Shown: positions 34,566-38,197 of the stretch, in pieces
Layout of the letters: the number at the start of each line of letters is the position of its first letter
Position numbering within the stretch: position 1 is the first letter of the stretch
IMG/VR virus record: IMGVR_UViG_3300031671_000549
Span: 1-43,042 of that record
From: a virus
Length of the DNA: 43,042 nt
Direction: 5' to 3' (one strand)
Made by a program: the position numbers and the translations under genes
Notes under the pieces: model-generated
Database searches by the model: none
What the model was told of the DNA's origin: nothing
The model's input: only the letters and a program-made list of their open reading frames with translations

Positions 34566-35065
34566 GCGAATAATGATTGCGGTTTTGCGGCCTTTTCCTC
34601 GCTCCAAGTGGTGTGGGTGTGCTTCCAGTCAAATGTGCAACCTGGGCGCGGGCATTTCCATTCGGGAGGCGTAGGAAGGTGTGCCTCTATCGCGTCGTCA
34701 ACCGGGGAACCGACGATAGTGCCGATGTAGTTCTCGGCCGGAATGACCTTCATCCGATACCAGTAAAGTTTTGGATTCTCCGGATCGTGCCAGCCTTTCA
34801 AATCGCCCTTACTGATTCCGAGAAGATTGCCGTGAATATCGATGAACTGACACCTTGTCTTTCCTGACCATCGTCCCTCCGCAAGGTCATTTATCCTGCC
34901 GCCGACGCGAGCCAAGCTCTTGAAGTCGCCGCGGCCACAGTGGAAACAGATATTGGAGGATGGGTAGACGGCCTTCACGATCTCGTCCGTCCGGTGAGGT
35001 CGGCCGTCTTTCAAAAGCTCGTAGAGACGCGCCGTTTGTGAGATTGGGGCGTTGTGGGTGGTCAT
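34562..35065 (-). CDS. Winged-helix/zinc-knuckle early protein
   Basis: A 167-residue protein. Residues 8-60 read as a winged helix (QTARLYELLKDGRPHRTDEIVKAVYP, ARVGGRINDL) interrupted by a CFHC (ICFHCGRGDF) knuckle. The C-terminus has a second CPRPGC (WKCPRPGCTFDWKHTHTTW). DNA-binding regulation or replication-initiation accessory functions fit, but no exact family is known. Its ATG (35063-35065) overlaps the 6-bp target duplication of the adjacent transposon, so the element lies directly at its 5' end. The native leader is now ~2.5 kb away at 37588 onward. No ribosome site is visible. It heads the early operon reading left. Confidence 0.7.
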   Translation of the reverse strand: MTTHNAPISQTARLYELLKDGRPHRTDEIVKAVYPSSNICFHCGRGDFKSLARVGGRINDLAEGRWSGKTRCQFIDIHGNLLGISKGDLKGWHDPENPKLYWYRMKVIPAENYIGTIVGSPVDDAIEAHLPTPPEWKCPRPGCTFDWKHTHTTWSEEKAAKPQSLFA

Positions 35066-35090
35066 TTCTGGGTACTGGGTCAGTTTGAAT
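35064..35090. repeat. Left end: target duplication plus terminal inverted repeat
   Basis: ATTTCT (35064-35069) is the target duplication and shares the AT of the adjacent start codon. 35070-35090 is the 21-bp terminal inverted repeat, beginning GGGTACTGGGTC, identical to the reverse complement of 37561-37581. Confidence 0.85.
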
Positions 35091-35236
35091 CTTCCCGACT
35101 CTAAGGGCTCAAGCGCTTGGCATCATAATTGCCTGGCGGCGCGGGGTGTGCTTTGATTCCACCTCTCAAGCCGCGCGCATTCGGCTTTCGACCGTTTCCT
35201 TGTCCGAATCCGGGGCGGCTTCCGAAACGAGGCTGC

Positions 35237-36043
35237 ATGACGATTGCAATCGGAATGTTGTGCCACGGAGGGGCCATTCTGGCCGTGGACGGCCGGGCCA
35301 CCGATCTCGACGGTACGGTTACGCGCGGCAGAAAACTTTGCGTAGTCAATAATGCTCAGGGAATTTCTTTCGGAATTGCAACGGCTGCCGATAACTTAAA
35401 TGCAGCAGAGACGGTTGTACGCGAAATTTCTACGAGGATCATCGGGAAAGCGAAAACGATTAAGAAATGGGCACAAGTAGAACGCTGCATCAAAGAAAAA
35501 ATGACAGAGTGGGCGCGAGCTTATGGACAGAATCCTTTCCCCCGAACTAATCTAATTGCCGGAATAACAATCGCGGGGCAAGGCACGCGGCTGTATTTCT
35601 GCGAGCCTCCGAACACAGTTCTTCCTAATAAAGACGGCTATATAGCGGTAGGAACCGGAGCGGCAGTCACTGACCCTCTTTTTACCGCGTTTTTCACTCC
35701 TCTTTTTGCGAGTTCGGGGCCGCAATATGTTTGCCGTGGACTCTGTTACCTGATGTACCGTGCAAAGAAAGACAATATGTATTGCGGGGGACCGACAGAT
35801 GCGGTTTATTTGGATACTCACAAAGCATCAGCAATCTGGCTCAATGGAAATGACTTCAGGGATGCAGAAAGCGCTTCTTTCCAGCTAGATTTAATCCTTC
35901 AGGCAACCACAACAGCCGCTTTGACCGACGCAGGGCCATTCTTAAAGAACAATGCTTCAGGAATCGAAAATTTGATTGTCCAATGTGAAAGGCTCAGGGA
36001 AACGGTATTCCGCGCTGCCGGCGGAAAGGCAATCGGGAAATAA
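35237..36043 (+). CDS. Proteasome/HslV-like Ntn hydrolase (passenger of the transposon)
   Basis: A 268-residue protein with the N-terminal-nucleophile layout of a proteasome beta/HslV subunit. After removal of Met the nucleophile would be Thr1 (MTIAIGMLCHGGAILAVDG). Asp17 (AVDGRAT) matches HslV Asp17, and Lys32 (TVTRGRKLCVV) fits the HslV Lys33 position. GISFGIATAADNLNAAETVVREI (about residues 42-64) resembles the helix after the first strands. The rest is longer than HslV (about 175 residues) and divergent. It has no HslU/AAA partner here. ATG 35237 has GAGG upstream, and the frame upstream lacks features. Codons are less GC-rich than in the phage genes. Whether it assembles or cuts proteins is unknown. 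Confidence 0.78.
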   Translation: MTIAIGMLCHGGAILAVDGRATDLDGTVTRGRKLCVVNNAQGISFGIATAADNLNAAETVVREISTRIIGKAKTIKKWAQVERCIKEKMTEWARAYGQNPFPRTNLIAGITIAGQGTRLYFCEPPNTVLPNKDGYIAVGTGAAVTDPLFTAFFTPLFASSGPQYVCRGLCYLMYRAKKDNMYCGGPTDAVYLDTHKASAIWLNGNDFRDAESASFQLDLILQATTTAALTDAGPFLKNNASGIENLIVQCERLRETVFRAAGGKAIGK

Positions 36044-36060
36044 ATACTCAGATGAAACCA

Positions 36061-36894
36061 TCATTCCCTGCTATCGAGCAGCGAAATCATTTCCTCGATA
36101 GACCAAACATGGTCCGCGATTCCCGCTTCCATCGCGGGAGTCACGCGGAGCGTTTCGTGGACTCGGCAGAAATTGTAATGCATGTAGTGAATCGCAATCG
36201 ACGCGATGTGATTCTCGACTTTCTTCGAGTGGGCGTTGGTCAGTCGCGTGAATCGGCGCATGTGCATCCGCATGGTGAGGTTTTGCCTCTCGACGAAACT
36301 GGTAGAGACGTGCCGGGAATCGGGCTTTCCAGAAATCGCCACCTCGCGGCAGCCGATGCACTCTGCCGGGCTGTACCGCGTGTCATTCGACCCATCGTTA
36401 CCGTAGAGCTTGACCAGCATCGCGTAATCGATCTCGCTTCCAAAGCTATCTTCCACAGCATTCAGATATGGGCGATGGCCGTCCGTTGTCAGTTGCACGC
36501 GATTCGCAAGCCGCTTTGCCAAGTCCTGCATAAAACCGTAGGCGCTTCCAGCGTCGCGTCCGGCAACGAGCCAAGAAACGATCAGTTTGCTGTCGGCATC
36601 CATTCCAACCCACGTCCACACGTCGCCATAGCCAAACTTGCCGCGAAGCTCTCCCCGAAGGTTTTTCTCTTTGGCATAGCAGAAAGACCAAATTTCGTCG
36701 CACTGAATGCGCTTGCTGTTCAAATTAATCAGGGCCTTGTCGAGGTATTCAGAGCAGGCCGCACCAAGTTCAACGAGCAACTTCGCAATCGTGTTCTTGG
36801 AGACGCCCGTCATGCGCACGGTCGCCCGGATGCCGTTACCTTCGACAAGGGCCGCAACCACTTGACGCCGCTTCTCTGTGCTCAGCTTGTTCAT
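36061..36894 (-). CDS. IS1-like DDE transposase
   Basis: A 277-residue transposase with a helix-turn-helix N-terminus (QVVAALVEGNGIRATVRMTGVSKNTIAKLLVELG) and a DDE catalytic core: Asp66 in RIQCDEIWSF, Asp138 in TTDGHRPY and Glu202 in SFVERQNLTMRMHMRRF, with HxMHYNFCRVHETLRVTPAMEAG near the C-terminus. It is annotated as IS1-like by overall pattern. A start 10 codons upstream (36924) was rejected because a strong promoter (-10 TACAAT at 36904-36909) puts the transcript start near 36897, so ATG 36894 is the likely start. It cuts and joins the 21-bp ends of the surrounding element. Confidence 0.88.
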   Translation of the reverse strand: MNKLSTEKRRQVVAALVEGNGIRATVRMTGVSKNTIAKLLVELGAACSEYLDKALINLNSKRIQCDEIWSFCYAKEKNLRGELRGKFGYGDVWTWVGMDADSKLIVSWLVAGRDAGSAYGFMQDLAKRLANRVQLTTDGHRPYLNAVEDSFGSEIDYAMLVKLYGNDGSNDTRYSPAECIGCREVAISGKPDSRHVSTSFVERQNLTMRMHMRRFTRLTNAHSKKVENHIASIAIHYMHYNFCRVHETLRVTPAMEAGIADHVWSIEEMISLLDSRE

Positions 36895-36903
36895 AATGGA
36901 CAC

Positions 36904-36932
36904 ATTGTATAAGCGGTCAAGCATAAAGTCAA
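36904..36932 (-). promoter_or_regulatory. Strong promoter of the transposase gene
   Basis: On the minus strand TTGACT (36927-36932), a 17-base spacer and TACAAT (36904-36909), both 5 of 6 to consensus. The transcript would begin a few bases before the ATG at 36894, giving an almost leaderless message. Confidence 0.65.
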
Positions 36933-37061
36933 GTAGAAAATGAGGCAGTAAATATGCATGAAGGAGAAGGATTACATACTGTAACTCTTGGGTTTCAAGC
37001 TGACTGGTTAAAGGAGATGCTAGGAGAAGTACTTTTATTGCGGGATTCTGATGCTGATGGT

Positions 37062-37259
37062 CTACTTCCTGCGGAACTTCTCCAAAGTTTTCTCGACTTC
37101 CAAGAGGCCCCTTCGGAACTTTTCAGCTTCGACTTTAAAAGAGAAGTTGCAGGCGGGGCAGACGAGTATCGGATTATTCTCAAGCCTAGCGATAGATTCT
37201 TGAATTTTGTGCTGGCACTTCGGGCATGGGATCGGAATCGTCACGTTGCGGTTTAGCAT
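37062..37259 (-). CDS. Small zinc-ribbon protein (transposon passenger)
   Basis: A 65-residue protein with two zinc-binding knuckles, CPKC (residues 12-15) and CPAC (34-37), a classic small zinc ribbon, followed by a basic C-terminal helix (FKVEAEKFRRGLLEVEKTLEKFRRK). It lies 4 bases downstream of the 83-residue gene, so it is translated from the same leftward message. Possible roles include DNA or RNA binding within the element. No family is recognised. Confidence 0.65.
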   Translation of the reverse strand: MLNRNVTIPIPCPKCQHKIQESIARLENNPILVCPACNFSFKVEAEKFRRGLLEVEKTLEKFRRK

Positions 37260-37263
37260 GATT

Positions 37264-37515
37264 CTATTTCTTTCTCCATCGCGCCTTAGCTGCCTTTGCC
37301 GCGATCTGGGATCGTTTCCTCTTGCTCAAGGCTGCGGCACGGGCATGGCCTCCCTTGAGGCCGCCCAAGCGCCCCAGAGAGACCGCAGCGGGATTTTTGG
37401 GGCGCTCGGCGGGGGGCTCAAACTTTGGAACTTGGCCGGTGGATTCGAGCATGATCTGATAGGCAAGCTGGTTCGGATCACGCGGGCGGGCTTGCTTCTT
37501 TGACCGCTCAGGCAT
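37264..37515 (-). CDS. 83-aa basic AlaArg/histone-like protein (transposon passenger)
   Basis: An 83-residue protein with a disordered N-terminus and a C-terminal basic segment (SLGRLGGLKGGHARAAAL..., RSQIAAKAAKARWRKK). The GxLGGLKGGxARAAxL and KAAKARWRKK elements recur in small bacterial proteins often found beside mobile elements. Nucleic-acid binding is inferred. A TTG-started longer form (37566) runs into the terminal repeat and is not used, because a good promoter (37522-37550) would start the transcript near the ATG at 37515. Confidence 0.65.
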   Translation of the reverse strand: MPERSKKQARPRDPNQLAYQIMLESTGQVPKFEPPAERPKNPAAVSLGRLGGLKGGHARAAALSKRKRSQIAAKAAKARWRKK

Positions 37516-37521
37516 GTACTG

Positions 37522-37550
37522 ATGGTAGGGCCGAAAGAAAACGGAGTCAA
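37522..37550 (-). promoter_or_regulatory. Promoter inside the right end of the element
   Basis: On the minus strand TTGACT (37545-37550), 17 bases, TACCAT (37522-37527, 4 of 6). The transcript would begin within a few bases of the ATG at 37513-37515. It shares the -35 and spacer length of the transposase promoter. Confidence 0.5.
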
Positions 37551-37560
37551 ACGAATGAAA

Positions 37561-37587
37561 ATTCAAACTGACCCAGTACCCATTTCT
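37561..37587. repeat. Right end: terminal inverted repeat plus target duplication
   Basis: 37561-37581 is the 21-bp inverted repeat matching 35070-35090. ATTTCT (37582-37587) is the second copy of the target duplication. Confidence 0.85.
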
Positions 37588-37595
37588 GAGTTTGA

Positions 37596-37753: not shown

Positions 37754-38197
37754 TTAGAACGGTATATCTTCGGTTTTTATTTTCTCCTCGCCCGGCCACG
37801 CGGGGAACGCTTCATCCCCTGCGGGTTCTTCTGTTGAAGGCTGAGCTTGGGGCTTTTCGGTCTTTCCCTCCGGCTTCGGCCCCAGCTCGATGTGCTCCGC
37901 CACGATCTCCGTGGTGCGGCGCGTTTGTCCGTCCTTGTCCGTCCAGCTCCGCGTCTGGAGCCGCCCTTCAATGAGGACGAGCGACCCTTTCCGGAGGAAA
38001 TTCGAAGCGATCTCCGCCTGTTTGCCCCACAAGACGACGTTGTGGAACTCGACCTCCTCCTGTTTCTGGCCGTTCTTGTCCGTCCAGGTGCGGTTGGTGG
38101 CGACGCCCATGCTCGTTACCGACTGGCCCCCCGGCGTGGTCCGCAATTGCGGATCGGCGGTCACCCTGCCGAGGATGATTGCTTTGTTGAGGTTCAT
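37754..38197 (-). CDS. ssb: Single-stranded DNA-binding protein
   Basis: A 147-residue SSB with an OB-fold N-terminal domain (MNLNKAIILGRVTADPQLRTTPGG, VATNRTWTDKNGQKQEEVEFHNVVLWGKQAEIASNFLRKGSLVLIEGRLQTRSW), a disordered Gln/Pro/Glu linker and the conserved acidic tail ending DIPF, which recruits replication partners. It forms tetramers on ssDNA. It lies 14 bases after the coiled-coil gene and belongs to the recombination module with exonuclease and RecT. Confidence 0.95.
   Translation of the reverse strand: MNLNKAIILGRVTADPQLRTTPGGQSVTSMGVATNRTWTDKNGQKQEEVEFHNVVLWGKQAEIASNFLRKGSLVLIEGRLQTRSWTDKDGQTRRTTEIVAEHIELGPKPEGKTEKPQAQPSTEEPAGDEAFPAWPGEEKIKTEDIPF

Follow-up and report, generated by a model that had tools for sequence, protein, structure and literature searches.

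IS1-family insertion sequences (ISs) have ends of the GGnnnTG type, target duplications of 8-9 bp and a transposase with an ERxNLxxR-like region beside its DDE residues, and their long forms, placed by ISfinder in the ISMhu11 group, reach about 4.6 kb. Here we describe an IS1-type transposon that carries the gene for a predicted proteasome-fold hydrolase and is inserted in the phage record IMGVR_UViG_3300031671_000549, which was analyzed over its full 43,042 nucleotides (the window). Set beside the ISMhu11 group, the family of this element is alike in its GGnnnTG-type ends, 8-9-bp duplications and single-frame DDE transposase, and differs in having a regular gene for a small basic protein (nicknamed KARW here) and recurrent defence-like or protease cargo. 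Taken as a whole, the locus is very probably best explained as a compact, autonomous IS1-type DDE transposon with a two-gene backbone and exchangeable, largely protective cargo.

IS derivatives in which passenger genes accompany one transposase within one pair of ends have been termed transporter ISs (tISs; PMC9330008). The elements described here likewise hold their passengers inside a single end pair, with the difference that passengers are the norm here: a non-transposase open reading frame (ORF) of at least 110 aa is present in 89 of the 92 elements. That the passengers move with the transposase was seen at empty sites of two relatives (L127 and L128; loci bear L numbers throughout) and, for the window copy, is judged from its ends and target duplication. 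The element is a tIS of the IS1 family, a known concept. A further parallel is found in the Tn3 family, where toxin-antitoxin pairs stand beside the transposition genes and were acquired several times (PMC7157771): in both cases protective or addictive genes adjoin transposition genes, but here the transposase belongs to another family and proteases and defence genes are carried too. Listings from searches of the open-licence PMC literature yielded nothing on this family or on IS1 elements with such passengers.

For the hydrolase, the relevant survey is that of Fuchs et al. (2021), who reported 22 new proteasome homologues and no genomic context suggesting a specific function; the string 'transpos' has 0 occurrences in its main text (PMC8665760). 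Transposon cargo supplies context of the kind reported there as missing. Many bacterial proteasome relatives are without a known role, and here they recur beside cargo matching defence and toxin-antitoxin-like families, whereby the function of an orphan proteasome homologue becomes testable at the bench.

The insertion in the phage record

The transposon and its insertion site are laid out in Table 1, where the strand assigned to the element is that of its transposase gene; hence its left end is at 37580. An earlier note on this DNA had proposed perfect 21-bp ends, a 6-bp duplication ATTTCT and a 2512-bp unit at 35070-37581. The inverted repeats do lie where it placed them, at 20 of 20 matching bp in the GGTAnTG register of the relatives; the proposed ends and duplication were one base off on each side, the family register giving 20-bp ends and the 8-bp CATTTCTG; and the unit is corrected to 2510 bp. 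The terminal-repeat pair is unique in the window (pattern search allowing up to three mismatches, with none in the reversed control). All four genes that the note had put inside the unit are present as described, namely the transposase, a proteasome-like hydrolase and two small genes, and the cargo does lie within the transposable unit, except that one of the two small genes, the one closest to the left end, belongs to the backbone and is not cargo. Its general proposal of an IS1-like transposon with passengers in a phage is borne out by the phage genes of the record, the family ends, the duplications and the empty sites of relatives.

Matches to terminase, portal, major capsid protein and exonuclease elsewhere in the record show it to be a tailed phage; a match to single-stranded DNA-binding protein (SSB) is found as well. 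The copy of the target duplication at 35063-35070 overlaps the ATG of a phage gene (34562-35065, minus strand), and the SSB gene (37754-38197) lies on the other side of the element. Near the insertion, the phage also has a gene for a CAP-domain protein (PF00188; 34131-34607, minus strand).

Table 1. Coordinates, in the window, of the transposon, its genes and its target site
Feature	Position	Strand	Basis
Target duplication CATTTCTG	35063..35070	.	Direct sequence inspection and family register
IS1-type transposon, 2510 bp	35071..37580	-	20/20 terminal repeats, 8-bp duplication, family-wide register
Right terminal inverted repeat GGTACTGGGTCAGTTTGAAT	35071..35090	+	Pattern search and family register
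Predicted proteasome-fold N-terminal-threonine hydrolase, 268 aa from the ATG before Thr	35237..36043	+	Pfam, PDB profile, AlphaFold2, Foldseek, VIA
IS1-type DDE transposase	36061..36894	-	Pfam, NCBIfam, alignment
YnfU-family zinc-ribbon protein, 65 aa, passenger	37062..37259	-	Pfam PF23499 and NCBIfam NF038384, both above cut-off
Small basic backbone protein (KARW), 83 aa	37264..37515	-	Conservation in 81/92 elements
Left terminal inverted repeat	37561..37580	-	Pattern search and family register
Target duplication CATTTCTG	37581..37588	.	Direct sequence inspection and family register

A family of elements that move as single units

We gathered 157 loci with related transposases, most of them from viral contigs (two scans), plasmids and 297 genomes belonging to the same phylum as an Acidobacteria metagenome-assembled genome; 38 of these 297 genomes were transposase-positive at E 1e-40, and the search of this phylum gave 66 places, from which 40 regions were retrieved. 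A recognized end pair was present at 108 of the 157 loci; after removal of redundancy, 92 elements remained, 1323-5253 bp long (median 3083). Every element count excludes the 49 loci lacking a recognized end pair, which are likely at contig edges or have degenerate ends; ends had to begin GGTAnTG, and neither loci L003-L013 nor the short duplicates L131-L161 entered the element set. Exact duplications abut the ends in 71 elements (8 bp in 68 of the 92, 9 bp in 3), compared with 0 of 92 at each of six shifted control positions. The window ends read GGTACTG and those of the family GGTA(g)TG, the heptamer itself having been a search requirement; outside it, end positions 12 and 14-16 are conserved as A (95%), T (96%), T (90%) and T (94%).

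Two elements were found along with related plasmids that lack them. For L127, on a Mesorhizobium plasmid, two such plasmids hold one copy of the 8-bp target with one substitution, and for L128, from Acidiphilium, two hold one exact copy. As these four insertion-free plasmids hold a single target copy, the entire unit moves as one piece. A RES-Xre pair beside L128 was considered as cargo and rejected: since the empty sites are annotated with this pair as well, it belongs to the host plasmid.

The earlier note had suggested looking elsewhere for the same ends around the same four genes, and for empty sites with a single target copy. In all 92 elements a related transposase lies between ends of the type seen in the window, and it is this arrangement, not the exact four-gene set, that recurs; the expected single target copy was found for the two family elements just named. 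Nor had the note seen any repeat pair closer to the transposase, which agrees with the minimal form of the family: L074 and L076, the shortest relatives (1323 and 1365 bp), still hold the small basic gene and the transposase gene, with no other ORF of at least 60 aa (as judged within the 64 elements listed singly). Three further elements, L017, L040 and L058, are nearly identical and have a common left flank; the right flank of L040 differs, as if adjoining DNA had been lost or rearranged.

Transposase and small backbone protein

The transposase is encoded in a single frame, whose longest ORF begins at 36924; alignment favours the Met at 36894. Residues D76, D148, E212, R213 and N215 (numbered in the 287-aa ORF) are unchanged in all 13 aligned relatives, and the element shows the traits of the IS1 family: GGnnnTG-type ends, duplications of 8 bp in the window and 8 or 9 bp in the family, and DDE residues with an ERxNLxxR-like region. 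Scores against the IS1 profiles are below cut-off, at 20.2 bits for Pfam DDE_Tnp_IS1 (cut-off 24.1) and, as the best NCBIfam match, 52.9 bits for transpos_IS1 (cut-off 100), and Pfam DDE_Tnp_IS240 scores 20.3 bits; plasmid homologues with 58-60% identity are annotated as IS1 family transposases. By the chemistry known for the family, the transposase would act on the GGTAnTG-type ends, move the 2.5-kb unit whole and duplicate 8 bp of target. An unannotated relative with 33% identity was noticed in the 321-kb Brevundimonas phage vB_BpoS-Gurke (ON529850.1, 174791-175672).

KARW takes its nickname from the end of its consensus, KRPRDxNQLAKxIVxxATGE...GRLGGLKGGxARAxxL...R.EIAxKAAxARW. It was matched inside 81 of the 92 elements and once across all flanks, mostly near the left end of the element. 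Within the Acidobacteria phylum its occurrence coincides with that of the transposase, which was present in 27 of 31 KARW genomes vs. 38 of 297 overall (Fisher P = 2e-25). The transposase and KARW thus constitute a two-gene backbone of the family. KARW has no match in Pfam, NCBIfam or PADLOC, its best PDB match has an E of 0.87, and its model shows three helices (predicted template-modelling score 0.38). As a regular partner of the transposase it may bind DNA or regulate transposition.

Two elements without the usual KARW match, L105 and L113, have another zinc-ribbon and basic protein (92 and 127 aa) at the opposite end, a possible replacement. Four others (L090, L096, L104 and L164) have cargo proteins of 320-377 aa that start with a stretch resembling the C-terminal half of KARW; Pfam P63C was found in five cargo ORFs, not matched by name to these four proteins.

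Exchangeable cargo

The slots between and beside the two backbone genes are filled by exchangeable cargo. All-against-all comparison yielded four recurrent groups: PD-Lambda-2-like operons in 16 elements (13 of the 16 with both clustered genes), proteasome-fold hydrolases in 13, a helix-turn-helix (HTH) group in 11 and SDH proteases in 3. Membership was exclusive, 43 of the 92 elements falling in one group and none in two. Pfam assigned to cargo ORFs Peptidase_M78 (11), P63C (5), SDH (4), Panacea (3) and, twice each, trypsin-like, NYN and STAND; single elements hold a DUF3800 protein (L033) or an Abi-like one (L037). Cargo ORFs were called by a longest-ORF rule, so that some are spurious, and 146 of the 165 of at least 130 aa were scanned, with 10 hydrolase ORFs and 9 others left out (the hydrolase ORFs of L025, L043 and L097 are outside the 165). 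PADLOC found PD-Lambda-2_B in 15 of these 146, whereas among 146 control ORFs from the flanks no family had more than one member.

Much of the recurrent cargo would protect the cell or stabilize the replicon, to go by its PD-Lambda-2-like, HTH-IrrE, Panacea, SDH, trypsin-like and single Abi-like and DUF3800 members. The window copy carries as its share the hydrolase, with N-terminal threonine kept, and the zinc ribbon. With exact ends and 8-bp duplications, the family offers a sharply bounded vehicle for finding more defence genes, 49 of its 92 elements lying outside the four groups. Among single cases, L186 has a SecB-like protein (SecB-like chaperones accompany some toxin-antitoxin systems) and L112 has as cargo a divergent representative of the PD-Lambda-2-like group.

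The proteasome-fold hydrolase

The match of the window hydrolase to PF00227 falls just short of the cut-off (E 1e-4; 22.1 vs. 22.4 bits). An iterated profile, which found 18 distinct hydrolase sequences, matches proteasome beta subunits and Anbu in PDB. For the AlphaFold2 model of the window protein (mean predicted local distance difference test 87), the best Foldseek match was Anbu (template-modelling [TM] score 0.66-0.71, E about 1e-13 to 1e-11), and the VIA Z scores were 24.4 for mycobacterial 20S beta and 23.2 for Anbu. Identity to solved chains among the matches listed was 11-19% (15-19% for Anbu), and 20S subunits, at 11-18% among those matches, were rejected as close kin. The protein is like Anbu and 20S beta in fold (with a TM score to Anbu of about 0.70 when taken over the query), in the Thr after the start codon and in Asp18, and unlike them in its low identity, in the open Pro/Arg-rich stretch upstream of transposon copies and in being transposon-borne; its match to Anbu proper is one of fold.

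Thr directly follows the start codon in 17 of 17 aligned hydrolases, Asp18 (equivalent to Asp17) is kept in at least 90% and Lys (equivalent to Lys33) is the majority residue, even though 14 of the 16 other hydrolases are only 13-19% identical to the window protein. Fold and nucleophile of this predicted hydrolase are thus kept despite wide divergence.

All 26 parsed sequences have a start codon immediately before the Thr or Ser (17 ATG, 8 GTG and 1 TTG; a 27th, L229, was left unparsed). Because parsing was limited to M, V, L, Y or K at this position, the result rests on all eight Val being GTG and the one Leu being TTG. Direct initiation followed by the expected removal of Met fits a start codon so placed. 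Upstream of the Thr, 23 codons are open in frame in 17 of 17 leaders (16 from elements, complete or not, and one from the stand-alone locus L045), compared with 6 and 9 of 17 in the other frames; this length was chosen post hoc as the shortest open stretch of the set, and the stand-alone loci L223, L225, L231 and L233, outside the set, would fail (L223 and L225 have a stop one codon upstream). The upstream stretch is rich in Pro and Arg, with a similar MISP/KPRP-like start in several sequences; it is open in frame in the window as well, where a TTG at 35153 aligns by eye with the start of the extension in some relatives. We hypothesize dual initiation, which would yield a latent, extended form and an active one, and would explain both the open leader and the start codon before Thr. 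An RNA hairpin in the leader (an AAGCCGC/GCGGCTT repeat) was rejected, with a mean folding z of -0.28 (range -2.63 to 1.67; 17 sequences, mononucleotide shuffles).

Occurrence of the hydrolase and its possible role

Hydrolase genes were found in 13 of the 92 complete elements (288 kb), with no match in 687 kb of flanks. In all 13 the gene lies to the right of the transposase gene and antiparallel to it; in the window the two converge. When presence of the hydrolase is mapped on a tree built from 127 transposases, 7 or more changes are required, vs. a mean of 16.1 for shuffled labels, with 0 of 500 shuffles as low; that is, the hydrolase stays within lineages yet has been repeatedly gained or lost. 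Outside the element set, 396 genomes of the phylum had 17 hydrolase-profile places in 16 genomes, 3 of them adjoining a related transposase. Searches of viral contigs with short patterns and of plasmids at E 0.001 returned no hydrolase relatives; distant ones were later found inside elements.

We tentatively propose that the hydrolase works on its own as a protease (or ligase) and would benefit both host and prophage through defence or addiction, a benefit on which the transposon would ride. We hold that it is a defence or addiction gene with less than even confidence, lowered slightly in view of the PADLOC family totals and of a recount of HTH elements, both given next. Several observations weigh against the explanation adopted here, whether for the hydrolase or for the element as a whole. 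More than half of the elements are outside all four cargo groups. The HTH group is joined by its HTH domain, and only 5 of its 11 members (L018, L110, L120, L129 and L192) are confirmed as HTH plus IrrE peptidase, the rest being the similar-looking L117, whose own frame was unscanned, and five short HTH ORFs; a count of 11 HTH-IrrE elements was accordingly rejected. The number of PADLOC families matched was similar for cargo and flanks (92 vs. 77, tallies of families that do not tell the number of ORFs with any match), so that the enrichment of cargo lies in the recurrence of a few families and not in defence genes overall. The hydrolase itself matched no PADLOC defence model at E 0.01. The nearest transposase relative of the window copy (L164, 72%) lacks the hydrolase. 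Fourteen of the 17 profile places have no related transposase in the stretch seen, which was only 3.6 kb for L217 and 5.5 kb for L226, and several of the 14 have the neighbours of what we take to be ordinary Anbu loci. In the more distant stand-alone homologue L231, Ser replaces Thr. Finally, a related phage gene was sought for the insertion site in the window and none was found, so that the single target copy expected by the earlier note was not recovered for this insertion.

Alternatively, the hydrolase might be neutral or metabolic chance cargo, its recurrence reflecting the descent of a few element lineages. The clustering on the transposase tree would fit this, as would the chromosomal homologues without an element; at least seven changes on that same tree, flanks free of matches and the retention of Thr at such low identity argue against it, and we consider it somewhat unlikely. 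A wider version of the defence or addiction proposal, unlikely in all its parts together, would make the IS1-type family, unrecognized until now, a vehicle that shuttles defence or addiction modules singly among phages, plasmids and chromosomes, with the hydrolases as a new effector class, perhaps having a latent form, in which the Pro/Arg-rich extension blocks the threonine, and an active form. Control of transposition, the hydrolase degrading transposase or KARW to limit copy number instead of serving as host cargo, would account for the fixed place and orientation convergent with the transposase gene in all 13 elements and again for the clustering on the tree. However, 79 of the 92 elements have no hydrolase match, homologues occur where no related transposase was seen, and elsewhere the slot holds other genes such as those for the DUF3800 and Abi-like proteins; we find this role improbable. 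A further reading takes the four genes for ordinary genes of the phage and the repeat pair for a coincidence or a remnant of some other event. It has in its favour that the record is a phage, and can be rejected with near certainty from the family ends, the duplications with their shifted controls, the transposase and KARW architecture of most of the 92 elements, the empty sites, and the PHROG results (no match for hydrolase or transposase and, for KARW, one weak match to a PHROG of unknown function).

Defence-like neighbours of the stand-alone hydrolases are suggestive only, coming from few loci with no matched control. Type I methyltransferase matches were found in 2 of 52 scanned neighbours (by sequence, two ORFs of L231), L225 adjoins a QatA-like/KAP NTPase, and L045 adjoins Vsr and an overlapping 129-aa ORF.

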